A stretch of 58,865 nucleotides of DNA, from NCBI RefSeq assembly GCF_016595495.1, contig NZ_JAENIM010000012.1, forward strand, positions 1 through 58,865, given 5' to 3'. Shown in pieces: positions 380 to 58,624 of the stretch. Position numbers and translations under genes: made by a program. Position 1 is the stretch's first letter. Each line of letters opens with the position of its first letter. The notes under the pieces were generated by a model. That model saw only the letters and a program-made list of their open reading frames with translations, ran no database searches and had not been told where the DNA came from. The stretch comes from Persicirhabdus sediminis (GTDB taxonomy: Bacteria; Verrucomicrobiota; Verrucomicrobiia; Verrucomicrobiales; Akkermansiaceae).

Positions 380-600
380 GTTTTTGTTGGAACTGAAACC
401 AGCTAGAAAAGACTGGAATGAGCTCAGCGAGCTAATTTAGTAACGCATTGAAGCGCAGTTGGGCAGTAATCCAGCCAGCTGGAATGTTAAATTTTGAATT
501 GCTATCTAAATCCAGTAATTTTGGCTAACAAATAGATGCGATTAAATCTTGTATGAGCCGCTAGTTTATTGATAAACCTGTCTTGTGATATGAACGGACT
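380..600 (+). repeat. Family B long repeat, copy 1
   Basis: This is a non-coding repeat. It begins near CTGTGTTTTTGTTG, passes through GCCAGCTGGAATGTTAAATT, then GGCTAACAAATAGATGCGATT, and ends at AAACCTGTCTTGTGATAT. The same order of blocks is found near 600-780, 2840-3080 and 3906-4135, with shorter tails at 1690-1752 and perhaps 1398-1450. The copies are diverged (roughly 70-80 percent by eye) and all in one orientation, and most sit directly upstream of a small gene. The boundaries are approximate. Confidence 0.65.
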
Positions 601-780
601 TCAATTGGCTAGTTTTGCCAATTTCCTTAAGCACTGAAGATCAATGGTCAGAAATCTAGCCAGCTGGAATGTCAAATTCAGAGCAGAGGCCAAAATTCGG
701 TGATTTCGGCTAACAAAATGATGCGATTGGATATTGCGTTTCCTGCTAGTCAAATGTTAAACCTGTTTTGTGATATGTTG
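600..780 (+). repeat. Family B long repeat, copy 2
   Basis: This second, adjacent copy of repeat B shares GCCAGCTGGAATG at about 659-671, GGCTAACAAAATGATGCGATT at about 709 and GTTAAACCTGTTTTGTGATAT near 755-775. Copies 1 and 2 lie in direct tandem with no gene between them, which suggests loss of an intervening gene or a recent repeat duplication. The closing block resembles a promoter -10 region, but that is only a guess. Confidence 0.65.
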
Positions 781-963
781 TAATAAGGCTCCAGGAGCAG
801 CTGAGAAAATACTCGAAGCATACTTGCCTCGGCTTAGGAGAAACCGAGATATGGATGCCTTGACATATATTAAAAGAGAAAACAACAATGTGTCCAAAAG
901 TAGAGGAAATGCGGGCTACAAAGTAGCAGAACCTCCAAAAGCAACACCAACAGCCGTGCTAGC

Positions 964-1395
964 ATGCCCAGAATAATAGTGCTTAATTCGATATTGTTTA
1001 CATTGATATTTTCTTCCTGTATGGATCAACGATCTACCGCACCTCAGGAGAGTGCCAATTTAGGGGGGAACAAAAACAACACAAAACCGATATCATCACC
1101 AGAAACATATTGTGCAAAATCTCAGGAAATGGACTATATCGAAGCGTATCCTTCCTTAGCGCATCTGGTTAAGAACTTTGGTGTTCCGCTTTATACTGAC
1201 GTTGTTAAGATACCTACGATACCTAGAGATCCAGAGAAGAAAATTACAGTTCATCATCTATGGCAAATCTCCCCTAGAATGAGACTGTTAGCAGTAACTG
1301 CATATGATGGAGAACTTGTTCGCGTGTCGAGATCGAAACTGAATAAGAAAGGTATATATGTTACAATAGATAGTGATAGCGAAGCGAATTACTAG
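964..1395 (+). CDS. Small predicted lipoprotein of unknown function
   Basis: This encodes 143 residues. The N-terminus (MPRIIVLNSILFTLIFSSC) is a short basic start, a hydrophobic core and then FSSC, an acceptable lipobox with Cys19 as lipid site, so the product is probably membrane-anchored outside the cytoplasm. The mature part is polar with no domain I recognise; a central segment contains HHLWQISPRM. The ATG at 964 is chosen because it leads directly into the signal sequence. It is the first of several small + strand genes separated by repeat B sequences, and its stop is followed at once by a degenerate copy of that repeat. Function is unknown. Confidence 0.6.
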   Translation: MPRIIVLNSILFTLIFSSCMDQRSTAPQESANLGGNKNNTKPISSPETYCAKSQEMDYIEAYPSLAHLVKNFGVPLYTDVVKIPTIPRDPEKKITVHHLWQISPRMRLLAVTAYDGELVRVSRSKLNKKGIYVTIDSDSEANY

Positions 1396-1397
1396 AC

Positions 1398-1450
1398 AGA
1401 CAAACTGATGCAATTATAGTGGGCTATCTTACCCTCGAATGTAATATGAA
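1398..1450 (+). repeat. Degenerate tail of repeat B (tentative)
   Basis: ACAAACTGATGCAATTA followed by CTATCTTACCC and AATGTAATATG can be aligned to the last 60 bases of repeat B (ACAAAATGATGCGATT ... AATGTTAAAC ... TGATATG). The match is weak but the position, between a stop codon and the next start, is the same as for the stronger copies. Confidence 0.35.
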
Positions 1451-1458
1451 ATGTAGTG

Positions 1459-1725
1459 ATGACTGTGATTAAGTTTAAAAATAAATTTGCCCTCTCAGAG
1501 GTTTTATTTGGATTTGTAGTGCCAGTTCTATCTATTGAAATATTCGATTTGTTGGATCATTACAGCGCTCAAGCAGTGATTTGTGTTTATGTCATATCTA
1601 AATGTATCCAGTATACTTATCTCTATGGTATATGGCGTAAAGAAAAGAACAGAAAACATAACATATCAAATAACCAGACAGACATTCAGAGAGATGCTGT
1701 GATTAGAGGTTGTCATTCTAGCTAG
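1459..1725 (+). CDS. Small membrane protein of unknown function
   Basis: This encodes 88 residues from the ATG at 1459 (an in-frame GTG lies one codon upstream). Two hydrophobic stretches, around residues 11-30 and 36-56, suggest two membrane passes, followed by a basic tail (WRKEKNRKH). I recognise no family. The final codons run into the terminal block of a repeat B copy (GATGCTGTGATTAGAGGTTG), so the natural C-terminus may have been replaced when the repeat was acquired. It lies between two other short genes in the same orientation. Confidence 0.45.
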   Translation: MTVIKFKNKFALSEVLFGFVVPVLSIEIFDLLDHYSAQAVICVYVISKCIQYTYLYGIWRKEKNRKHNISNNQTDIQRDAVIRGCHSS

Positions 1726-1752
1726 CTCAATTCTAAAATTGTATTGTGATAT
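1690..1752 (+). repeat. Terminal block of repeat B
   Basis: GATGCTGTGATTAGAGGTTG is identical to the corresponding block at about 3015-3034 in another copy. It is followed after a gap by TTGTATTGTGATAT, like the end of the other copies. It overlaps the last codons of the preceding gene and lies just upstream of the next one. Confidence 0.6.
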
Positions 1753-1784
1753 CCTACCCTAGTTTCTAATAATAAATTATTTAT

Positions 1785-2372
1785 ATGAATGCATTAATTG
1801 TTACTATAGTTAGCCTAGTTCTAGGTTGTTTTGTTATGCCAGTTGACGCGGGAGAGCTGAATCCTAGGTTTCAAATTTTATTAGAAATGACTAAAGTTTG
1901 TGGAGCTGAACGAGTAAATACAGAGGTTGAGAAGCTATTAGGCGAGGACTCTTCTGATATATTTATAGCTAAAGGTCAGCAACAGGAAATAATACGAATT
2001 TGGTATTTGGGGGGCTGGGGAAGTATTTTATATGAGATACGGCAAAATAATAATGGAGTTTTTGAAGGTAAAAGAATCATTATTCAAAGAGTTGATGAGG
2101 CTCCTAAAATATCGAAGGATGATAAATTACTTAGGTTAGCTGTAGAAAAAGCTGTTTATCCACTGTTAAATGAGCCATTTCCAATCAAATCAAAAGATGA
2201 AGAGCCTAGTATATATAAGCGGAACGAGTCTGTGTTAATTATTGAACGGGTGGATAGAGTCGGTAACTACACATGGTGTGTTAGGTCGCCTTGGCATCTT
2301 TCGAAAAAGAAGGAATCTGAGAAAGGCCGGTTAACAGCTTATTTGCAGAATGTATTTGGTGAGTTGTATTAA
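1785..2372 (+). CDS. Hypothetical secreted protein
   Basis: This encodes 195 residues starting at an ATG that opens a clear Sec signal (MNALIVTIVSLVLGCFVMPVDAG), probably cleaved near Ala22. A Cys at position 15 could instead be a weak lipoprotein site. The mature protein is mixed charged and aromatic with no motif I can assign; two Trp-rich stretches (IWYLGGWGS and CVRSPWHL) stand out. The coding sequence is AT-rich compared with the nuo genes, in keeping with a transferred accessory gene. A family A repeat follows its stop. Confidence 0.6.
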   Translation: MNALIVTIVSLVLGCFVMPVDAGELNPRFQILLEMTKVCGAERVNTEVEKLLGEDSSDIFIAKGQQQEIIRIWYLGGWGSILYEIRQNNNGVFEGKRIIIQRVDEAPKISKDDKLLRLAVEKAVYPLLNEPFPIKSKDEEPSIYKRNESVLIIERVDRVGNYTWCVRSPWHLSKKKESEKGRLTAYLQNVFGELY

Positions 2373-2493
2373 ATAATTAGACCTAGCACGCATGTGAAGG
2401 ATTTAAAGAAAGGGATAGTGGAAATTACCAGACAGGTAATTTGAGAAAGGAATTTTTGACCATATCATATCACTAGACATACAAACTGTGGTG

Positions 2494-2860
2494 AATAATT
2501 TTTGCAAATAGCTCAGCTTGAATTACCTGTTGAGATTATGGCTACAGTTGGGTATCTCTCTCCTTATCGAAAACATCGCTCGGCGGTTTACCTTTGCATT
2601 TGACTCCGTTCCACTTCTCATATGAGGAGAGGGACTTTTCCTTCCGGAAATTGGGTGGTAGCAATGCCGACGAGTTAGGTTCTGATCAGAGCTAGCTGTC
2701 GCAAGCCAATAAACCACAGTTCATCTGACAAGCCTCACTTCATCATGGATGGAGTGGTTTTTTTTACCTTCATGCTGGATCTCGGCATCTAGCAAATTTG
2801 TTAGCTAGTGGCGAGGAGGTGTATTAGATGGGCGAGGTCATGTATGAGATTTGTTTTTGT
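2494..2860 (+). repeat. Family A long repeat, copy 1
   Basis: This is a non-coding repeat of about 360 bp that aligns along its whole length with 3545-3905. Shared blocks are AATAATTTTT.CAAATAGCTC, TATCGAAAACATCG, GCATTTGACT.CGTTCCACTT, CTCCGGAA-like sequence, CAAGCCT.ACTTCATCATG and GCTGGATCTCGGCAT. Near its centre (about 2608-2632) is a stem-loop, GTTCCACTTCTC atat GAGGAGAGGGAC. A second, U-rich terminator-like hairpin lies near 2735-2785. The family B repeat follows directly. Confidence 0.7.
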
Positions 2861-3080
2861 TGGAGGTATAGCCAGCTGGAAAGCATCTCAGATTTCGGTA
2901 ATGGTTTTTAGTTAGGTTTGTTAGTGCGGGTAAGTACCTACTGCTCCAAAAATCCAGTCTGCAGATTTTAGAATTCTGCATTTACTATCAAATCCCAGTT
3001 ACTGAGGCTAACAAAATGCTGTGATTAGAGGTTGTGATATTTGAATGCATGATTAAAAACCTGTTTTGTAATATACAGGA
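2840..3080 (+). repeat. Family B long repeat, copy with insertion
   Basis: This copy keeps TTTGTTTTTGTTGG, AGCCAGCTGGAA, GGCTAACAAAATGCTGTGAT, AGAGGTTG and AAACCTGTTTTGTAATAT. About 80 extra bases lie between the CAGCTGG block and the GGCTAAC block. It ends some 25 bp before the start of the next gene, as the other copies do. Confidence 0.65.
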
Positions 3081-3104
3081 CTGCCATTGATAGAGGAACT
3101 AGCA

Positions 3105-3536
3105 ATGGGTTTCGAATTTATATTCGTAAATCGAAGCATGGCGGATGACACCGTGAAATTTACTCTATTGAAAGAAAATCGTGTATGCAATTTTAGGTTT
3201 AAATATTTACCAATGAAAAGAGGCGACTTAAAAAAATGGTTTAACCCATATGCTGATGACGAGTTCGATGAATTGTGCCGTTTTCGAATATTGGACGTGG
3301 TGAATCTGCTCATTATTGCACTTTGTATAGCATACACTATGAGAAGTTGTAGTAGTCCCGGTGGGGGGGCTATGCCTGCGATAGTTGGGTTAACATGGGT
3401 TAATGCCATGATTAACAGAAGGGTGCTAGCAAAGCAAAATAGTGAAATAAAAGAGCTTAAGAAAATATTGAATGCTGGCTCTGAGTGCAAAAATATACCA
3501 TTACAAATGTATGGATACAAATCACTAGATAGATAG
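3105..3536 (+). CDS. Small membrane protein of unknown function
   Basis: This encodes 143 residues. I prefer the ATG at 3105 over an upstream TTG at 3087 because AGAGGAA lies 9 bases before it. The first 70 residues are soluble and charged. A hydrophobic segment (about residues 66-80, DVVNLLIIALCIAYTM) is followed by a Gly/Pro-rich turn, a second apolar stretch and a basic C-terminal helix. The layout suggests a bitopic or hairpin inner-membrane protein. No family is recognised. It is bracketed by repeat B upstream and repeat A downstream. Confidence 0.5.
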   Translation: MGFEFIFVNRSMADDTVKFTLLKENRVCNFRFKYLPMKRGDLKKWFNPYADDEFDELCRFRILDVVNLLIIALCIAYTMRSCSSPGGGAMPAIVGLTWVNAMINRRVLAKQNSEIKELKKILNAGSECKNIPLQMYGYKSLDR

Positions 3537-3544
3537 TTTTAGAT

Positions 3545-3905
3545 AAATAATTTTTCAAATAGCTCAACCTAAGTTATCTGTAGAGATTTTGGCTACAGCG
3601 AGATATATATCTCTCTATCGAAAACATCGTCCGGCGGTTTACCATTGCATTTGACTGCGTTCCACTTCTCTTATGAGGAGTGGGACTTCCCCCTCCGGAA
3701 GATAGGGGTAGCAATGCGACGAGTTAGGGTCTGATCAGAGCTTGCTAAATCAGGTTATTAAATCACAGTACATCTATCAAGCCTGACTTCATCATGCATG
3801 GAGTGGGGCTTTTTTATTTACCTCCATGCTGGATCTCGGCATGTAGCAAATTTGTTAGCTAGGGGGGAGGAGGTGTACTAGATGCTAGTCGCCATGTATG
3901 AGCTG
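3545..3905 (+). repeat. Family A long repeat, copy 2
   Basis: This second near-complete copy of repeat A starts 8 bp after the stop of the preceding gene. The central stem-loop (GTTCCACTTCTC ttat GAGGAGTGGGAC, about 3658-3685) is fully paired here, where copy 1 has one A-A mismatch. A terminator-like hairpin, GCATGGAG with a T-rich loop and CTCCATGC, lies at about 3795-3830. Confidence 0.7.
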
Positions 3906-4135
3906 TGTTTTTGTTGAAAGTGAAACCAGTTAGGTGTTGGCTGAAATGGCCTTGAATTCAGCTAATTAGGCCCAATTCGTAAAACATTGATGATCTGTGG
4001 CTGAAAAACAGCCAGCTGGAATGTTAAATTCAGATCAGAGGCCCCAATCCGGTGATGAAAGCTAACAAATAGATTCGATTAGAGGTTGCTTGACCTGCTA
4101 GTCTGATGCTAGACTTGTCTTATTATATAAGGTGA
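3906..4135 (+). repeat. Family B long repeat, copy before the second lipoprotein gene
   Basis: This contains CTGTGTTTTTGTTG near 3902-3916, GCCAGCTGGAATGTTAAATT at about 4012-4031, GCTAACAAATAGATTCGATT and AGAGGTTG, and ends in an AT-rich block TCTTATTATATAAGG. It follows repeat A with no gap, so A and B may together form one transferable spacer. Confidence 0.65.
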
Positions 4136-4266
4136 CTCGCCACGACTTTGGGGATGATCTATGTATGGGGCTTGGTTAGCTGCAGCGGGTGTAGCTAAGC
4201 TATAGCCTGGTAAATCATTTAGACTATTTGTGTTCTCGGATGGCGCTAAACCAAGAAGGAATGGAC

Positions 4267-4749
4267 ATGCTGACTTTAGGTAAATCTGTAATTATAGGCG
4301 GAACCGTATTTTTGACTGTTCTAGGGTGTGATAAGTCATCTGAGAGTTTGCAGCAAGTTGATAAAGCTAATGCGCAGCAGTCAGACTTTTATAATGAGTA
4401 CCTATTTGATAGAGCAAAAGGAGAGCTATGGAATAACTCAGAAGGAGTTTATACTGATTCGGTTGCTGTACAGATAAATTGGCAGCAACAACGGTGCCAG
4501 CTATGGAGGCAATACGACATGCCTCCCTTTGACGTGGATGTTTTAATTAGTGATTTTGAAATATTGTCGAATAATAACCTTCACGTTAATGATTGGGGGG
4601 CTGCGACGGCGGGCTTTATCATCAAAAGAGAAGAGAAGAGTGACGGGGAAGAGGTCTTGAAATTGACGATAGCAGGGGTTAATCATGTGTTGACTAAGCA
4701 ACATGCAGATTTGGCACCTAATCCTTTTGTTATAACCTATCAGAATTGA
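4267..4749 (+). CDS. Predicted lipoprotein of unknown function
   Basis: This encodes 160 residues from the ATG at 4267, chosen because AAGAAGGA ends 6 bases upstream and because it opens a standard lipoprotein signal (MLTLGKSVIIGGTVFLTVLGC). The lipobox VLGC makes Cys21 the lipid site. Longer in-frame starts at 4228 and 4240 would bury the signal. The mature region has several Trp and Gln residues and no recognisable domain. The next gene starts 59 bp downstream, so the two may be co-transcribed. Confidence 0.6.
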   Translation: MLTLGKSVIIGGTVFLTVLGCDKSSESLQQVDKANAQQSDFYNEYLFDRAKGELWNNSEGVYTDSVAVQINWQQQRCQLWRQYDMPPFDVDVLISDFEILSNNNLHVNDWGAATAGFIIKREEKSDGEEVLKLTIAGVNHVLTKQHADLAPNPFVITYQN

Positions 4750-4807
4750 GGTTGATTGTTTTGGGTGTGTGGGCACTCCATTGGTGGGCAATTTTAATCA
4801 CATCGTT

Positions 4808-5554
4808 ATGAATACACGTTTTTGGAAATTAAGTGAATTACCTCTAGCATCCGATAGGTTGATTGATATGGCTCATGGTACACTTGAGATACCATATAGG
4901 ATGCCTTTCGTTATGTGCTGTAATGGCTGGGGCGTGGGTAAAACAGTTCGTCATGAATTAGGTGCGATGGGGCAGGCTGAATTAATGAAAGGCATAGATA
5001 AAATGGTTCCAGTAGAATTATTTATGAGCCTAAGAAAGAGATTGTTATCAGTGGAAGCTCCTCATCTGCAAGAAGAGCATGTAATGCCGGGTGTTAGCTT
5101 TTTGCCTTTTCATTACCAGGTGCCCTATGACAAAAGTGATTTCAGTGTTGGCTACGAAGATTACATTATTGTGTCAGATCGCGTGGTGGAATTGTTTGAC
5201 TCCTTTTGCGCTCAGGACATCTCTGCATATCCTTTAAGTTCCGGATATAAGTTACTTTTTACAAATAGATTTACGCCTCTGCCAGATGAGCTTAAGCCCG
5301 AGCATAAAGAGGTATGTAAGAGGTGTGGAAATCCTGATAAGGGTAGGCGAAGAAGATATAGCGTGTGGAATAGATTATATAAAAAATCACTAATTTCAGA
5401 AGATTTTCATTTTTTTTCAGTAGAGGAGGCTTGTCATATATTTTACGTTTCTAATGAGCTAAAGGTATTAATTGAGAATTCTTCTTTTACGAATATTAGC
5501 TTTGAGGCGGTAGAAGAGCTTAGTGTCAATGGGATAGAATATTTAAAGATCTAA
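4808..5554 (+). CDS. Putative immunity-like protein with CxxC zinc knuckle
   Basis: This encodes 248 residues from the ATG at 4808. A CKRCG motif near residue 175 and further Cys residues (FVMCC, EEACH) could bind zinc. The C-terminal part, with the pattern FSVEEACHIFYVSNELKVLIE, reminds me of the end of Imm11/DUF1629-like and double-CxxCG immunity proteins of polymorphic toxin systems, where a helix ends in 'vs..lk..le' before a short strand. This is a weak family resemblance read by eye; no toxin gene is in the window. The gene is AT-rich, and a diverged family A repeat follows. Confidence 0.45.
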   Translation: MNTRFWKLSELPLASDRLIDMAHGTLEIPYRMPFVMCCNGWGVGKTVRHELGAMGQAELMKGIDKMVPVELFMSLRKRLLSVEAPHLQEEHVMPGVSFLPFHYQVPYDKSDFSVGYEDYIIVSDRVVELFDSFCAQDISAYPLSSGYKLLFTNRFTPLPDELKPEHKEVCKRCGNPDKGRRRRYSVWNRLYKKSLISEDFHFFSVEEACHIFYVSNELKVLIENSSFTNISFEAVEELSVNGIEYLKI

Positions 5555-5639
5555 TTTGAGATTGGTTTATATAGGGATAGGTAATTTATGTTGGGGTGGT
5601 TTCGTGATTCTTATAATGAGTTTGTTGTGTTGATTGTGT

Positions 5640-5770
5640 GGGTCGCACGATATTTAACCCGATGTCGGGGCAATCGTTTGACGTTCTACCATCGCATTTG
5701 GCCCCGTTCCTCTTCACTCATGAGGAATGGAAATTCCTCGACCGGTAGTTAGGTGGGTAATGCCCTGCGG
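5640..5770 (+). repeat. Family A long repeat, diverged fragment
   Basis: ACCATCGCATTTGGCCCCGT, CATGAGGAATGGA, CCTCGACCGG and GGTGGGTAATGCC align with the centre of the two full copies. The central stem-loop is retained with different bases (TTCC..TTC.CTC / GAG.GAA.GGAA). Pairing is therefore maintained while sequence changes, which would fit a structured RNA. Confidence 0.55.
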
Positions 5771-5902
5771 AGCTGTCATTCGCCTGTGGTATACCGCTGA
5801 TATATTTTTTTGGATGCTGAGCGCGAGCTTGGCATTGGGTTAATCATTACGGCTTTGGCTTATCTGGCCTACTTTCAGCAGGCTTGATCAGTGGTGGGGG
5901 AT

Positions 5903-5922
5903 CCTAGGGCTGAAGCCCTAGG
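5903..5922. repeat. Perfect palindrome
   Basis: CCTAGGGCT ga AGCCCTAGG forms a 9-bp perfect stem. It lies just before the tandem array and is followed by a second small palindrome (GGGTCTTCGGCCC). No gene is visible between 5555 and 5997 apart from the repeat A fragment. Confidence 0.6.
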
Positions 5923-5997
5923 CTTTGTTCTTATGGGTCTTCGGCCCGTTTGGGGGTATTTGAGCGCGAGGGTTAGTTTTGGTGCGTTGGGTGGATT

Positions 5998-6735
5998 GAA
6001 AGCGGCGAAGGATCGCCGCAGTCCGAAAGCCTTCGGCTGATCTTGTGTTGTTGGTTGGTTTTTTTTGTGGGCATAAAAATGCTGATCTCTGGGTGAGATT
6101 GGAGCTAGCTGGCTGTGATTGTGGGTTGTTGTATGGATAGGGCTGGTTGATGATTTGGGCACCGTTGTTTATTTGGTGCTGGTGAGTGAGGTGATGCGGA
6201 AGCTTGATCGAAAGCGGCGAAGGATCGCCGCAGTCCGAAAGCCTTCGGCTGAGCTTGTGTTGTTGGTTGGTTTTTTGTGGGCTCAAAAATGCTGATCTCT
6301 GGGTGAGATTGGAGCTATCTGGCTGAGATTGTGGGTTGTTGTTTTGCTAGGACTGGCTGATGATTTGGGTGTCGTTGTTTATTTGGTGCTGGTGAGTGAG
6401 GTGATGCGGAAGCTGGGGTGAAAGCGGCGAAGGATCGCCGCAGTCCGAAAGCCTTCGGCTGAGCTTGTGTTGTTGGCTGGTTTTTTGTGGCCACAAAAAT
6501 GCTGATCTCTGGGTGAGATTGGAGCTAGCTGGCGATGTCTGTGGGTTTTGGTGTGGCTGGGACTGGTAGGTGATTGGGAGGTCGTTATCTATTTCTTGCT
6601 GGTTAGAAATATGATGCGGAAGCTGGATTGAAGGCGGCGAAGGATCGCCACAGTCCGAAAGCCTTCGGCTGAGCTTGTGTTGTTGGCTGGTTTTTTTGTG
6701 GGCACAAAAATGCCGATCTCTGGATGAGATCGGCA
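5998..6735. repeat. Four-unit ~210-bp tandem array of palindromic units
   Basis: Units begin at 5998, 6210, 6420 and 6630 (spacing 212, 210, 210). Each opens with two REP-like hairpins, GCGGCGA agga TCGCCGC and CCGAA agcc TTCGG. Each continues with CTTGTGTTGTTGG and a T-run, then a hairpin AAAAATGC.GATCTCTGG.TGAGAT; in the first three units this hairpin has decayed on one arm. The last unit ends in the intact hairpin that serves as nuo terminator. The array seems to have grown by duplication of a terminator-plus-REP segment. Open frames here have repeat-derived, low-complexity translations and are not genes. Confidence 0.8.
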
Positions 6736-20356: not shown

Positions 20357-20566
20357 GTAGCTAAAAGATGTACGGCATTTTTCAGATGCAAGCCACTGAT
20401 TACGTGCGATATTGGTGATTATGAAATCTCCAGAATCAACGCAGAATCAACAAAAACCAGCGTAGCTAAAAGATGTACGGCATTTTTCAGATGCAAGCCA
20501 CTGATTACGTGCGATATTGGTGATTATGAAATCTCCAGAATCATCGCAGAATCAAAAAAAACCAGC
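20357..20566 (+). repeat. Two tandem 105-bp units upstream of the transposase
   Basis: The segment from GTAGCTAAAAGATGTACGGC to about AAAACCAGC occurs at 20357-20461 and again at 20462-20566 with only a few changes. Each unit holds half of the RAYT-type palindrome (ATGTACGGCATTTTT) and the ATG AAA TCT CC start region of the transposase gene. The duplication therefore copies the gene's own leader and first codons. Confidence 0.85.
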
Positions 20567-21734
20567 GGAAACGAAGCCGCTGACGCCGCTGCAGCTGGCG
20601 GATTGTAAAACGGGTTTTTCTGGTGGCGCGGCGGGCATGATTTGTGCGCCGCCGTCTGGCGGGCATGTGCGCATTGTTGGTGATGATCAGCACTCGTATT
20701 GTTATCATGTGATGAGCCGCACGGCGGGTGGAGATTATCTGTTTGGCGACCAGGAAAAAGAAGCGTTTTTACGCATCATGTGGCGCATGGCGCGCTTCTC
20801 AGGCATTAAGATCCTGACTTATTGTTTGATGGATAACCATTTTCACTTACTCATTCGCGTGCCTAGCAGGGTGAAATTCAATGCCAAATTTGAAGCCTAT
20901 GAGTCACAAGGTCGGCCAGACGAAAGACCGTCGCAAACCAAGCAGCAAGGGGAAGAGCGGCTGATCGAGCACTTACGAACGCTGTATAGCAAAGCGTACA
21001 TCAGCCAGCTACGAGCCGAGCTGGCGCACATGCGCTCCAATGGCATGGAGCGCTATGCTGATGAGCAACTAACTAAATACAAAGAGCGATTTTGTAACTT
21101 AGAAAAATTCGTTAAAGAACTCAAAGAGCGCTACAGCCGATGGTATAACAAAACTCACGGAAGGCGCGGCGCGCTTTGGATGGGCCGCTACAAAAGCGTG
21201 TTGGTAGAATCTACTAACAAACCAGTCGAACACGAAACCGGTGAAGATTTCAGCGCGCTGCATGCCATCGCCGCCTACATCGATCTTAATCCAGTTAGAT
21301 CGGGCATCGTTAGCGATCCAAAAGACTACCGCTGGTGCGGTTACGCCGCTGCGCTAGCTGGCAGCAAACGCTGTCGCTACGGGCTCTGCGAGGTGATGCG
21401 TGTGGCGCAAACCAGCTGGAAGAAAAACGCCCATCGTTACCGACTCTGGCTGATAGAAGATGCTGCCGTCACTGATGAAAATGCCAAATCCCAGCTAGAA
21501 AATGAACGTGCTAGAGAGGGCAAAATCTCTCCCGCTGAGCTACTGCGGCACAAAATAAAATACTTCACCGACGGCGTCGCCATCGGCGGCAAAGCCTTCA
21601 TCAACAATCAATTCAGAATTCACCGCAAAAAATTTGGCAAGAAGCGCAAGCAAGGCGCCAAGGCAATTTCGCCAGCTGGAGAGTCGACTAACTCTATCTA
21701 CTCGCTCAGGCACTTCGTAGACGGAAGTGCCTGA
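20526..21734 (+). CDS. REP-associated tyrosine transposase (RAYT), IS200/Y1 type
   Basis: This encodes about 402 residues from the ATG at 20526. The Y1 HUH nuclease core begins near residue 45 (RIVGDDQHSYCYHVMSRTAGG) and contains the histidine pair in YCLMDNHFHLLIRVP. The later block AYIDLNPVRSGIV is typical of RAYT proteins. This class cuts and joins single-stranded DNA at REP palindromes through a tyrosine. Two Lys/Arg-rich stretches, one in the middle (about 130-185) and one at the C-terminus, make it longer than simple IS200 TnpA. The start and leader are duplicated just upstream. A 12-bp inverted repeat overlaps its stop. I infer it acts on the 19-bp palindrome family nearby. Confidence 0.88.
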   Translation: MKSPESSQNQKKPAETKPLTPLQLADCKTGFSGGAAGMICAPPSGGHVRIVGDDQHSYCYHVMSRTAGGDYLFGDQEKEAFLRIMWRMARFSGIKILTYCLMDNHFHLLIRVPSRVKFNAKFEAYESQGRPDERPSQTKQQGEERLIEHLRTLYSKAYISQLRAELAHMRSNGMERYADEQLTKYKERFCNLEKFVKELKERYSRWYNKTHGRRGALWMGRYKSVLVESTNKPVEHETGEDFSALHAIAAYIDLNPVRSGIVSDPKDYRWCGYAAALAGSKRCRYGLCEVMRVAQTSWKKNAHRYRLWLIEDAAVTDENAKSQLENERAREGKISPAELLRHKIKYFTDGVAIGGKAFINNQFRIHRKKFGKKRKQGAKAISPAGESTNSIYSLRHFVDGSA

Positions 21735-55142: not shown

Positions 55143-55770
55143 CTATCTATAGAGCTGCTTCACAATGGCTCGGGCATAGGAAATAATGGAAAGCGAGTTG
55201 CTCCGTGTTGTCGAGAAGTAGACAACGACTGTATCGGTTTCAGGGGAAACGTAGAGCGCCTAGCCGCCGAGCCCAGCTTTTATAGAGGTCGCCGTCGGCA
55301 AAGATGGCATCCCACTGATAGGAGGTTCCTTTTGGTGGGTCGTCTTCACCAAACGACCTGATCATGCGCGGCCCTTGAAAGCCTTTGCCGTAGATACCCG
55401 CATTGACCGCGGCGTAGACGGCGTCGAGATAGTCTTCTGGCACGACACGTTCCTCGGCGACTACATTCCAGCTGGGGGTAAACAAGAGCCCAAATCGCGC
55501 ACAATCATGCAGCGAGGATGCAAATGCGCCACCGTGGAGCCCTTCACCCGCAGATGAGAGACCTAGCAGACCATCGCCTTCCATGCCGGCTTTCGACCAA
55601 ATTCTATCGCTGACCGCACGGTTCCACGCCCATTGTAAATTAGCGCTTGCAGCTGACTGCCGCTGAACCCGCCACGACTGAGCCGATAGACGTCGTTAGA
55701 GTCTTCAATAATTGCAATTCCGTCACTTGCAGCCGCGATGTGTCGGTATCGGGCGCTTGTTGTGCGCATT
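55143..55770 (-). pseudogene. Decayed serine hydrolase (beta-lactamase class C family)
   Basis: Translation of the minus strand across several frames gives the C-terminal half of a beta-lactamase-like protein: QWAWNRAVSDRIWSKAGMEG, then GLHGGAFASSLHDCARFGLL, PSWNVVAEERVVPEDYLDAV, YQWDAIFADGDLYKS, and after a frameshift GLGG*ALYVSPETDTVVVYF with a premature TAG, ending QLYR and a stop at 55143. The SxxK and YxN active-site part is missing upstream, where an ankyrin gene starts. At least one frameshift and one nonsense change make it non-functional. Confidence 0.8.
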
Positions 55771-56370
55771 CATGTTAGAGGTCTGCCATGACGTGCCATA
55801 TTCAGGTATCTCCTCATTGGAACTCTTGGTTAGCTCTCGTAGAAGCAAGTAAATCTCTTCATGACTAGCTGCCTTCGCTGCATCCACTGGTTTCCACCCG
55901 TTCACCCCCTTCAAATGTGGGTTCGCTCCTGCTTCCAATAGAATAGTAACGATCTCGAGATGTCCCTTGAATGCTGCATTGATGAGAGCTGTATTTCCTT
56001 CACCCTCCATATTATCTACCATAGCTCCTTCTTCGATTAAGATATTGACGATATTAGTATGACCGTTCCAGGCAGCCTGATTGATTGGCCAACTTGGCTC
56101 GACACCCCAACCTGTGTCTTCAACGTATCCCGCCTCGTAAAACTCTTTATAGTCGTTGATCCCGTCAACATCAGCTCCAAGACGGAGCAGAATTCTTACT
56201 CCAGTCTCGTCACCTGTGCGACAAGCTTCACGAAAAAGCCAAAACCTATCTCCAGCTGTCATTTGAGTGACTGTTTCAGGCGCTGTAGTAGCAGCTTTTT
56301 CACACTGAGATTGTAGGGCTATCATCACTACAATCAGAACTAGAAGTATAATCGCAGAGGTATGTTTCAT
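55723..56370 (-). CDS. Ankyrin-repeat protein, exported
   Basis: This encodes about 215 residues from the ATG at 56370 (MKHTSAIILLVLIVVMIALQSQC), a signal anchor or lipoprotein-like start with Cys23. Ankyrin repeats follow: EACRTGDETGVRILLRLGAD, NQAAWNGHTNIVNILIEEGA, ALINAAFKGHLEIVTILLEA and the incomplete KPVDAAKAASHEEIYLLLRE. It is a protein-binding scaffold in the periplasm or at the membrane. An integron-like GCATAAC (GTTATGC on the coding strand) lies immediately upstream. The last 25 residues run into the pseudogene and may be non-native. Confidence 0.8.
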   Translation of the reverse strand: MKHTSAIILLVLIVVMIALQSQCEKAATTAPETVTQMTAGDRFWLFREACRTGDETGVRILLRLGADVDGINDYKEFYEAGYVEDTGWGVEPSWPINQAAWNGHTNIVNILIEEGAMVDNMEGEGNTALINAAFKGHLEIVTILLEAGANPHLKGVNGWKPVDAAKAASHEEIYLLLRELTKSSNEEIPEYGTSWQTSNMNAHNKRPIPTHRGCK

Positions 56371-56375
56371 TTTTT

Positions 56376-56382
56376 GCATAAC
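56376..56382 (-). repeat. Integron-like core sequence before the ankyrin gene
   Basis: On the coding strand GTTATGC stands at the start codon. It has the invariant GTT of attC core sites but departs from GTTRRRY at one position. The upstream side (AGTTCACCGGCGG on the + strand) is GC-rich and partly palindromic. Confidence 0.35.
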
Positions 56383-56472
56383 ATAAAGTTCACCGGCGGC
56401 GATGGCAGCTTCTATAAACGATTAAAGCTATAAATAGTGTGAGACAGTCTGAAAAACCTAGCTGCTCAGCTG

Positions 56473-56988
56473 CTAGCGGTCGGGGGCATCGCCTTGTTCG
56501 CTTTTGATTTTCAGTTTGGCGTTAGACTTCAGTTCCAGGGCGAACAACTCAGCAAAAACATCGTTCACACGCCCAAATCCCCAGTGGCCATCGCCATTGA
56601 TTTCGACCATGTCGGCTTCATGTGTCTCCGATCCGTCGGGGGAGTAAAAGAATGTCCGAAGCTCGCCCGGAACTGTGGAAACAAAGCGCCCGTTGAACCG
56701 CTGTGCATCCTCAATGAAATGTACATACTGAACCTTCTGTCCGATCTGCCATTCCCCACAGTGGACATGCGTGACAACAGCTCTCTGAATCAGCTGGCCT
56801 TTGGGTAATGTAGCAGAAGGCGGAACCCACTCTTGCTCGTAAACGCAAATGTCGACGATGATAGAATTGTGCCTAATGTAATTCTGTAAGGTCTCCAACA
56901 TGCCATTCTTCTTGGCGGACTCGATAGAAATTTCACCTGCCGAGGCCACTTGAAGAAGCAAGAGTATTGTTATGAGTTGGCGGATCAT
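56473..56988 (-). CDS. Small secreted protein of unknown function
   Basis: This encodes 171 residues from the ATG at 56988, which opens a signal peptide (MIRQLITILLLLQVASAGE); a longer frame to 57075 lacks signal character. The body has a strand-rich pattern (RAVVTHVHCGEWQIGQKVQY, FVSTVPGELRTFFY, EINGDGHWGFGRVND). No family is recognised. The start follows an AACGTTAAC sequence by about 7 bp. Confidence 0.6.
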   Translation of the reverse strand: MIRQLITILLLLQVASAGEISIESAKKNGMLETLQNYIRHNSIIVDICVYEQEWVPPSATLPKGQLIQRAVVTHVHCGEWQIGQKVQYVHFIEDAQRFNGRFVSTVPGELRTFFYSPDGSETHEADMVEINGDGHWGFGRVNDVFAELFALELKSNAKLKIKSEQGDAPDR

Positions 56989-56994
56989 TTTTGA

Positions 56995-57001
56995 AGTTAA
57001 C
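56995..57001 (-). repeat. Integron-like core sequence
   Basis: The coding strand reads AACGTTAACTTCAAAAATG: GTTAACT shares GTT with attC core sites and stands 7 bp before the start codon. Confidence 0.3.
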
Positions 57002-57160
57002 GTTAAGTACTGGCGACCAACCCCGCTGGATACGAAACCGCGCCGCATATCAATTTCTGCCACAACCAAGTCCAAGAGTCACCGTAAATCTATCAGCTGG
57101 AGAGATAGGGGCGCCTGCTTCGGCTTGTTCACCTAGACATTTTTTGTTGGAGCTGACCGA

Positions 57161-57457
57161 CTAGCCGGGAGCCAAAATCCAAGACCTGCACAGAAAAACA
57201 ACCAAGCTTCCAATTAAAGCTACTACGGAAGGCAACATAGGGCTCTCACCTCTGCTAAAGCCAATAAGGGCAAGTAAGCCAGTGAAAATCGGCCCGACAA
57301 TGAGCAATAAGTGGCCAACTATCGTCCCTCCGAAATTGGAAGGACCAGATCCGAAGCTACTCTGAAAAGTAGAATATCCTATCAAGACAATGGTGACGAG
57401 AATAGCCAGAGCAGAACCACCGCACGTGGCAGGTTTAACATTTTCTGGATCAGCCAT
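57161..57457 (-). CDS. Small membrane protein
   Basis: This encodes 98 residues with three hydrophobic helices (about 15-30, 45-65 and 73-92) after a short polar N-terminus (MADPENVKPATCGGS). It has no known motif. A GTT core-like sequence is 6 bp upstream. Together with its neighbours it looks like one of several unrelated single genes inserted in the same orientation. Confidence 0.6.
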   Translation of the reverse strand: MADPENVKPATCGGSALAILVTIVLIGYSTFQSSFGSGPSNFGGTIVGHLLLIVGPIFTGLLALIGFSRGESPMLPSVVALIGSLVVFLCRSWILAPG

Positions 57458-57462
57458 TTAAA

Positions 57463-57530
57463 GGAGAACGTCGAAAGCCGCCCAGCCGCTACCAGCGAGC
57501 GAGCTTTGATTTCAGGTTATAGTTAGTAAG
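57463..57530 (-). repeat. attC-like imperfect palindrome
   Basis: On the coding strand AACCTGAAATC and CGACGTT flank a hairpin AAAGC.CGC.CGCT ggt AGCG...GCG.GCTTT. The GTT end lies just before the start codon of the next gene and the AAC end just after the stop of the previous one. This is the layout of an integron attC site, but the outer cores match the consensus poorly. Confidence 0.4.
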
Positions 57531-57537
57531 AATCATT

Positions 57538-57999
57538 TCAACGTTGACTCGGCGCGGGTAGAGCATTGGTGTAGGCTGTCTTGTTAGCCCAGTTTGTTCG
57601 CCAAATCGATCTATTACGAATAAGGTGAAAAAGAAAACCTAAAACCAGCAGACTTTGAATCCCTCCATCCTCAAGAGGTAAACTACTTAAAAAATGCCCG
57701 TAACTAATCACTCCTAGAGCGGATAGAGAATACGCAATGCCAAAATCGTAAGCGAATTTACATCTAGTTAGGATGAAAATCCCCGTGAGTCCACCTAGAA
57801 GAATCGTACCTGTTAGCATAACAGTAAAATGCACTTCGCCAGCTCCCTCTTCAATTGAAAAACCGTAGGCAGATAAGCCAAATATGTCTCCTCGATAAAT
57901 CATTTGCCCTATAACCAGTATTGGAATGATAGTGAGAAATGCAAAACACCATGAGAAGAATCTTATCCATTTCGGTGGTGATTTATCTGATTGTTTCAT
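57538..57999 (-). CDS. Small membrane protein
   Basis: This encodes 153 residues with four hydrophobic helices, a short basic N-terminus (MKQSDKSPPKWIRFFSW) and a polar C-terminus. No family was recognised. The start codon follows a perfect attC-type core, GTTAGGC, by five bases, and the stop lies at CAACGTTGA. Confidence 0.6.
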   Translation of the reverse strand: MKQSDKSPPKWIRFFSWCFAFLTIIPILVIGQMIYRGDIFGLSAYGFSIEEGAGEVHFTVMLTGTILLGGLTGIFILTRCKFAYDFGIAYSLSALGVISYGHFLSSLPLEDGGIQSLLVLGFLFHLIRNRSIWRTNWANKTAYTNALPAPSQR

Positions 58000-58226
58000 T
58001 TTTAGCCTAACGTTACACCTGACCTTCGGTGTTCATAAACTCAACTTTATCGACTCGCGTTTTCACCGTAAGGTCCAGGTGCTGGTTGTGCATTTTTTGC
58101 CTCAGAATGGCTTTGTGCAAATCTGAAACTGTAATTGGTTTCACTTTATACCCACCAATCCCAAATAGTTTCCTTATACATTTGGGAATCAAAACCGAAC
58201 CTTCGCTGTGAAATAAAAACTCATTA
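58000..58226. other. Short region between the cassette-like genes and the IS element
   Basis: This holds the GCCTAAC core (58005-58011, a perfect RYYYAAC) with a small inverted repeat ACACC...GGTGT beside it, and a hairpin CCCAAAT ... ATTTGGG near 58160-58190. No gene is visible. Confidence 0.4.
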
Positions 58227-58288: not shown

Positions 58289-58624
58289 ATGACACAACCA
58301 CGTAGAAGACATAGCGAAGAATTTAAGCAGGAAGTCATCGATTACTTTCTGAGTAGTGCTAAAAGCGTAACCCAAATCTGTAGAGACTTCCAAATCTCGC
58401 CCAGCCAATTTTATGCCTGGAAAAAGAAGCTCCTTGGGGACGCAGAGAGTGACCGAGCCTCAGGCGAGGGCATGAACGAAGTCCCCAAGGAGGCTTCGGT
58501 CGCAGAGTTAGCTGAGGAAGTTAGGAGGCTGCGCCAAGAGCTAGCCAAGTCACAGCGCCGTGAAGAAATCCTAAAAAAGGCTGCGCTCATATTGGGAAAC
58601 GATCCTCACAACAATATGAGCTAG
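58289..58624 (+). CDS. IS3-family transposase OrfA
   Basis: This encodes 111 residues. The N-terminal helix-turn-helix (RRHSEEFKQEVIDYFLSSAK, VTQICRDFQISPSQFYAWKK) binds the element's ends. The C-terminal part (VAELAEEVRRLRQELAKSQR) is a leucine-zipper-like coiled coil. The frame overlaps the start of orfB. A heptamer A AAA AAG at 58573-58579, in the correct phase, should cause -1 slippage and yield the OrfAB fusion transposase. Confidence 0.93.
   Translation: MTQPRRRHSEEFKQEVIDYFLSSAKSVTQICRDFQISPSQFYAWKKKLLGDAESDRASGEGMNEVPKEASVAELAEEVRRLRQELAKSQRREEILKKAALILGNDPHNNMS
58573..58579 (+). promoter_or_regulatory. Programmed -1 frameshift site
   Basis: A AAA AAG lies in the phase of orfA codons CTA AAA AAG. 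Reading continues in the -1 frame as an open orfB frame to the window end. This is the classical IS3-family slippery heptamer. Confidence 0.88.

Follow-up and report, generated by a model that had tools for sequence, protein, structure and literature searches.

Candidate gene cassettes between RAYT-like transposon ends in the genome of Persicirhabdus sediminis

Contig C12 of the verrucomicrobial bacterium Persicirhabdus sediminis (58,865 nt; the entire contig is hereafter the window) starts inside an array of small genes separated by long repeats. A first-pass annotation of this DNA had described these genes, all in one direction, as lying among diverged copies of two repeat families, A and B. 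We verified the coordinates of the genes and of both direct repeats, with the small open reading frames (ORFs) in between all on the forward strand; however, the two families are not independent. Judged by sequence comparison across the genome (G000; 4.17 Mb in 47 contigs), the repeats represent opposite ends, 5′ (A) and 3′ (B), of a single multicopy transposon family of the HUH/Y1 type, related to the REP-associated tyrosine transposases (RAYTs). We propose, as a reading that we hold in even balance, that this and similar arrays are cassettes of genes enclosed by the ends of a RAYT-like transposon, in which a gene and its ends would move as one unit. The observed basis comprises the identity of the repeats, a genome-wide order of ends and genes, the composition of the intervening (cargo) genes, a homolog of one of them in an integron, and the recurrence of this order in a second genus. 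New, as far as the literature searched goes, are the arrangement of ends and genes into cassettes, the distribution of this arrangement over the genome, and its tie to the genes of integrons, the transposon kind itself being already known.

The connection between the repeats is provided by contig C47, where they lie at opposite ends of a gene for a 391-aa transposase: the first ~120 bp of repeat A contain the start of that gene, while repeat B comprises its final codons and ~310 bp of non-coding DNA. Genome searches with window positions 2480–3080 (repeat A plus a repeat B end) and 1–790 (repeat B plus the first 199 bases) returned 11 and 24 places, respectively, each count including the query itself and some matches of the latter search being due to those 199 bases. 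The transposase matches the Pfam family PF01797 (Y1_Tnp) with E = 1.1 × 10−12 (48.5 bits vs. a cut-off of 23) and displays, by eye, the motifs NHFH (HUH) and YIDLNP (Y---NP). As its score against the NCBIfam model NF047646 (REP_Tyr_transpos) is 67.6 bits, under the cut-off of 80, we use the label “RAYT-like”. Its nearest named matches are metagenome-assembled genomes labelled Akkermansiaceae, Verrucomicrobiales, and Rubritalea. The genome holds six long copies of the transposon plus fragments, with four of the other copies ~94–97% identical to that on C47 and one, on C45, at 76%. Besides C47, long copies are found on C41 (two, both intact), C8 (with one stop), C45 (with two stops), and C43, where an N run with a repeated stretch interrupts the copy, perhaps as an assembly gap. 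Alignments of the left end (LE) and right end (RE) revealed terminal inverted repeats at both ends (ATATCACTAGACA... and ...TGTCTTGTGATAT); these ends flank the copies on C47, C41, and C8. Repeat B also contains a hairpin (z −2.5).

To follow the ends through the genome, we defined RE as the final ~130 bp of repeat B and, from 17 copies, most of them first located by BLAST and nhmmer, built a profile covering the terminal 133 bp. The profile recovered at least 27 copies (E < 1 × 10−3; best E = 1.9 × 10−32) at 14 loci on 12 contigs, of which 17 were found by construction, being the model-building set; the count is a lower bound because 150 of 2476 first-look candidates were scored. The repeats are not confined to the window, so that the refuting outcome named in the first-pass annotation, repeats found only here, did not arise. 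Behind 22 of the 27 copies, an ORF of at least 90 aa on the same strand begins with ATG within 260 bp, and at 20 of the 27 the ORF has a hydrophobic N-terminus; at 4000 random positions the corresponding values were 31.9% and 7.75%. In the opposite direction, an ORF was found at only 2 of the 27 copies. Among the five RE copies with no qualifying gene, two are followed by another RE, one has only a 64-aa ORF, one is near a contig end, and one is on C34. The 22 RE-linked genes include one transposase and one gene common to two copies, leaving 20 distinct cargo genes. At the other side, the LE motif has 31 matches with at most one mismatch, compared to one for the reversed pattern, and 12 of the 31 are located between −2 and +130 bp of the stop of a same-strand ORF, a figure with no random control for LE positions. 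Since the genes start behind RE and LE often follows their stops, we define the unit as RE–gene–LE, with one or more genes. Units free of any transposase body between the end pieces are seen at C45:27.2–27.9 kb and in the C39 array.

This order also offers a clue to expression. Because RE lies close to the start codon (~0–190 bp) and features a conserved TTG...18 bp...TAAA pattern (recognized by eye in the alignment), it probably supplies the promoter. With RE upstream and a terminator in the repeat A segment, each cargo gene is likely its own transcription unit. The first-pass statement that repeat B copies end shortly before start codons applies to four of the window genes, namely c01, c03, c04, and c05, where the distance to the ATG is ~30–190 bp.

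The cargo set comprises 28 ORFs, with the 64-aa ORF behind RE at C8:153451 left out and the sequences of c08 and c18 beginning slightly inside their reading frames. These genes look foreign and AT-rich: their mean GC content is 38.8% vs. 50.1% for 127 further ORFs of 200 aa or more from the examined loci (p = 1 × 10−14). They are also mostly unrelated to each other, the only similarities at E ≤ 0.01 being those between c04 and c25 from two different loci and within the tandem pair c10/c11, for which no homolog was found in 191 relatives at E ≤ 1 × 10−5; additionally, c28 has a tandem copy. A Pfam scan of 27 of the 28 proteins (all but c18) yielded a single family above the cut-off, the YkuD transpeptidase (c24), and none among the six window ORFs. 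Of the window genes, which the earlier description had called lipoproteins, membrane proteins, and an immunity-like protein, several are lipoprotein- or membrane-like ORFs; the Imm11 resemblance of c06 reaches only E = 0.026, below the cut-off. Single-sequence structure predictions for c06 and c03 gave mean pLDDT values of 31 and 39 and were discarded as useless. We also observed a lipoprotein-like cargo ORF (L191 771–1079) that consists mostly of an EVQ tripeptide repeat. The earlier picture of modular units, with unrelated genes between constant repeats, accords with the 27 RE copies at 14 loci, the AT-rich cargo, and the homolog of c06 in an integron array, to which we turn.

The sole homolog of c06 among 191 other genomes (E ≤ 1 × 10−5) is at G012:C25:2370–3053 (E = 6.7 × 10−10; 25% identity). 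This 3.3-kb contig is an integron-type array, and the homolog sits among its attC-like sites. A profile made from five of the attC-like spacers of this contig matched six places on it (five by construction) and six on G012:C17, where they are upstream of an integron integrase scoring above the cut-off. Given the position of the c06 homolog in this array, the cargo families include at least one that circulates in the form of an integron cassette. P. sediminis itself has an integron integrase on C16 (L247 983–1894; TIGR02249, 346.7 bits vs. a cut-off of 265), the only one above the cut-off in the genome; it is close to the contig start with no array visible beside it on the contig, and it does not adjoin the RE/LE arrays, as far as contig breaks allow this to be seen.

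Comparable arrangements occur in other genomes. In G009, the representative of the second genus, the transposase is 45–47% identical to that of P. sediminis and has its own, different end sequences; at C2:449–463 kb, small genes stand behind copies of this RE and ahead of copies of this LE, accompanied by an RHS gene. This array adjoins ~20 small genes with attC-like spacers (by eye), no integron integrase being found above the cut-off in G009, and a DMP19-like gene is also present in this genome. G012 has an array of small genes for secreted proteins and an RHS ORF, in which an LE-like repeat occurs six times (including that of the transposase itself), always on the same strand. Between an RHS core ORF upstream and a SUKH gene (5 × 10−19), Verrucomicrobium sp. 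BvORR106 carries a RAYT and four more RE copies on the same strand, the SUKH gene being 347 bp behind the RAYT. In other genomes, e.g., M30B22 and JARGPJ, different loci have plain elements of ~1.2–1.3 kb in common.

If the RE–gene–LE order reflects mobility, AT-rich small genes, supplied at least in part by the pool of integron cassettes, would be captured between element ends, and arrays would grow by repeated insertion and by recombination between like ends. The intact transposases on other contigs would act in trans on these ends, and RE and the repeat A segment would serve as promoter and terminator for each gene. The genes may have been captured by the transposase itself, or they may have come by another route and been enclosed by the ends later. 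The cargo would be used at the cell surface, in competition or immunity. A bolder and rather doubtful extension is that these ends constitute a second gene-cassette system beside the integron, in which single foreign genes, taken from integron arrays, would be enclosed by the ends of an HUH/Y1 RAYT-like transposon, expressed from them, and scattered over the chromosome as RE–gene–LE units, with the same architecture built on different ends in other Akkermansiaceae.

The element itself is of the TIRtron/TIRYT kind, a RAYT-like transposase flanked by terminal inverted repeats that are unrelated to REPs, according to the pertinent section of PMC3733652. Shared with it are the HUH/Y1 RAYT-like gene between inverted-repeat ends (ATATCAC-TAGACA ... 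TGTCTTGTGATAT) and the dispersal of the ends as a repeat family, here with 27 RE copies and 31 LE matches. In contrast, the end pieces here bracket foreign genes in one order, and the PMC3733652 section on TIRtrons mentions no cargo genes. Since the repeats are ends of a described kind of transposon, the first-pass remark that no described element has this architecture was half right: the literature covered (titles and abstract starts, with preprints and most subscription papers outside the scope) contained no description of such cassettes with RAYT ends. Class 2 RAYTs (TnpA-REP or REPtrons) share with the present transposase the PF01797 domain, the HUH motif, and Y---NP, which PMC6006769 gives as the class 2 motif. 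According to PMC6006769 and PMC2817692, that class, except for subclass 2.3, is of low copy number with low conservation between copies, whereas the element here is multicopy, with four copies close to that on C47, and its transposase scores under the NF047646 cut-off.

Integron cassettes likewise consist of small AT-rich genes, most of them belonging to no known family, which point in one direction and have repeats between them, and one cargo family is shared with the G012 integron; they differ in that the spacers here are transposon ends, spread over 14 loci with no integrase seen beside them. In one-ended or composite HUH transposition of the ISCR/IS91 kind, genes that adjoin an end of the element could travel with it; here, by contrast, the transposase is of the Y1 type and single genes lie between partial ends. 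Immunity gene arrays, such as those of type VI secretion systems, also present tandem small unrelated genes with immunity-like families nearby; most cargo here is, however, family-less. RAYTs have been proposed to be domesticated transposases that mobilize short palindromes (PMC8266576). Should the relatives described here carry genes, they would represent a gene-capture machine, and cassette genes would gain an exit from integrons into the chromosome. The order, with RE before and LE after, also constitutes a searchable signature by which genes for surface proteins, and possibly for immunity, could be found in Verrucomicrobiota; in this genome, the majority of such genes belong to no known family.

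Several observations weigh against the cassette interpretation. Among 99 RAYT loci of relatives, 89 were testable and 39 had any further end copy, with only L201, L204, and L120 judged array-like. The RE profile, with stricter filters and 60 candidates scored in each genome, found no RE in 55 relatives; no same-genus genome was present among 57 relatives or among the matches listed from 191 genomes; and neither an empty site nor a target duplication was found. RE copies start at differing points of repeat B, leaving no clean unit boundary. Further, 19 of the 31 LE matches are not closely behind a gene: some precede transposases, five are in a tandem repeat on C41, and two are inside ORFs. The enrichment in hydrophobic starts (19 of the 20 distinct RE-linked genes vs. 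83 of 202 other ORFs) is a rough comparison, with the best of several starts used on both sides, and the c06 translation shows no evident hydrophobic start. Finally, of the five RE copies in the window, only one (1710–1739) was picked up by a generic promoter scan, which gave 22 sites compared to 16.3 in shuffles.

In a plausible, if less than even, alternative explanation, the transposon is a bystander. Foreign genes would gather at island hot spots by other routes, such as integron leakage, phages, or homologous exchange, and RAYT-like elements would hop into the gaps; insertions placing RE upstream of a gene would survive through promoter supply, so that the order only appears fixed. This fits the arrays on C41, C27, and C29, which begin ~180–360 bp after tRNA-Ser genes, a classical island place (L013 8618–8707, L017 1769–1858, and L191 1761–1848, with the three different anticodons gct, gga, and tga; no duplicated tRNA ends were found within the stretches examined there), and also the C8 and C39 arrays, which begin just past a hairpin with a T-run. 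Solitary, cargo-free transposon copies on C43 and C45 point in the same direction, as does a second multicopy RAYT family (window 20517–21734 and other contigs; eight long copies plus fragments, mostly 92–95% identical), for which no cargo pattern was noticed when its copies were compared with each other only. However, bodiless end pieces around single genes (C45:27.2–27.9 kb and C39) are hard to obtain by plain insertion, the same order recurs in G009 with other sequences, and opposite-direction ORFs behind RE are rare. In an improbable alternative, RE is a promoter or operator and LE a terminator, both shared by a scattered regulon for secreted proteins that is not mobile at present; the position of RE just ahead of start codons, its two conserved hexamer-like blocks, and the terminator-like hairpin of repeat A would suit it, but A and B hold transposase coding remnants and match full transposon copies, the cargo is AT-rich and mostly unrelated, and the 55 relatives surveyed yielded no RE.

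It is very improbable, in our view, that this is simply an integron array whose attC sites are unusual, a reading for which one could cite the integrase on C16, the attC-type array at the right end of the window, and the integron-cassette family of c06. Against it, the conserved parts of the spacers are transposon ends, the attC profile had no match in the left-end arrays, and five of the six window spacers have no R″/R′ box pair, the sixth containing one at 5652–5754. It is retained at all because both tests are weak: the same profile attained only E = 0.037 on the contig's own attC-type array, on which the box search found nothing, and hairpin-energy z-scores could not tell attC-type spacers apart from the two transposon ends, RE and LE. 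Compatible with any mechanism is the tentative proposal, reasonable though held at less than even odds, that these are poly-immunity loci directed against RHS-type polymorphic toxins and kept by competition. It draws on the C34 SUKH gene, with an LE-like motif (two mismatches) 73 bp past its stop, on the SUKH gene behind the BvORR106 RAYT with its RHS core ORF upstream, and on the RHS ORFs of the G009 and G012 arrays with the DMP19-like gene of the former. Conversely, only YkuD was above the Pfam cut-off among the scanned cargo proteins, the folds of two of them were of no use, and the sole RHS match in the own genome (C45, L248 16077–19835) adjoins tandem copies of the other RAYT family. The SUKH and RHS genes elsewhere lend thin support to the toxin-immunity role raised by the first-pass annotation; the six window ORFs gave no Pfam family above the cut-off.

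Within the window, all features of the left-end array are on the forward strand. Its leftmost part is the tail, the final ~18 codons, of a cargo gene (96–178; stop at 155–157; frame DGRSEAISLFVLEQSNVK* by eye) that is 100% identical over 83 bp to C27:457–539, where the full copy is a 128-aa lipoprotein-like ORF; the DNA beyond differs. This is a hint of shuffling, although an assembly effect is possible because both copies are near contig ends. A C-terminal transposase remnant with stops follows at 182–274 (tblastn 182–244; 65–274 with four stops, E = 1.2 × 10−8). A long repeat B copy (200–592), comprising the transposase 3′ end, the hairpin, and RE at 462–592 (108 bits), is 87% identical to C47:199413–199815 and is followed by a second copy at 593–779 (RE 647–777; 109.2 bits); both represent transposon 3′ ends only. 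The lipoprotein-like c01 (964–1395; 143 aa; no Pfam family at E ≤ 0.1) has its stop overlapped by an LE motif at 1386–1428 (core 1393–1406), an exact 14-base match with a profile E of only 0.19. The membrane-like c02 (1456–1725; 89 aa) is the weakest gene call of the six and extends into repeat DNA at its 3′ end, where a ~95-bp micro-element (1658–1752; 31.2 bits) fuses a worn LE-like stretch (by eye) to a 59-bp RE piece (1694–1752).

The secreted or lipoprotein-like c03 (1785–2372; 195 aa), also with no Pfam family, is followed 94 bp past its stop by repeat A (2466–2875), which sequence and profile comparison resolved into LE, a transposase N-terminal frame remnant (2502–2600), and a ~280-bp segment; an intrinsic-terminator-like hairpin with a T-run lies within it at 2735–2764. 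A repeat B is fused to it at 2846–3075 (alternative start 2943; RE 2947–3075, 77.5 bits). The membrane protein c04 (3105–3536; 143 aa) has a distant homolog, c25, behind RE on C43 (27% identity, E = 5 × 10−7), and its end is overlapped by the second repeat A (3518–3929), with LE and an N-terminal remnant (3553–3651) recognized by sequence comparison; the two A copies are 80% identical across 415 aligned bp. The next repeat B is at 3900–4129 (alternative start 3945; RE 4001–4129, 96.2 bits), such that the copies 2466–3075 and 3518–4129 have kept both transposon ends and lost the middle. The array is completed by the lipoprotein-like c05 (4240–4749; 169 aa; no Pfam family), c06 (4808–5554; 248 aa), and a worn piece of repeat A (5673–5764; 70–75% identity). 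Rfam at gathering scores had no family on repeat A or B, its sole match in the window being the Acido-Lenti-1 RNA at 5903–5948.

At the other contig end, outside the element, the attC-type integron cassette array occupies 55240–58050 on the reverse strand, with the single profile match and boxes, e.g., GTTAGGC and GAACAAGC, seen by eye. Beside it is a transposase-like ORF (58289–58624) that is also present near the end of C27. At the very start of the window, positions 1–95 are identical to the end of C23 and to C9:221–315 and similar to C34:124086–124170, a repeat near contig ends. With regard to the transposons, some copies of the second RAYT family, that in the window among them, have a tandem ~105-bp repeat ahead of the gene. 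In several genomes and in both families, a full transposase gene is directly preceded by tandem partial 5′ copies (L012 12815–13195, L203 7918–9156, L152 185–1225, L248 13236–15428, and L120 2707–4624). Finally, the Acido-Lenti-1 match directly precedes a tandem ~210-bp repeat of three to four copies (5980–6709) located between the array and NADH-dehydrogenase-like genes, and nine further tandem matches to this RNA are found on C47.

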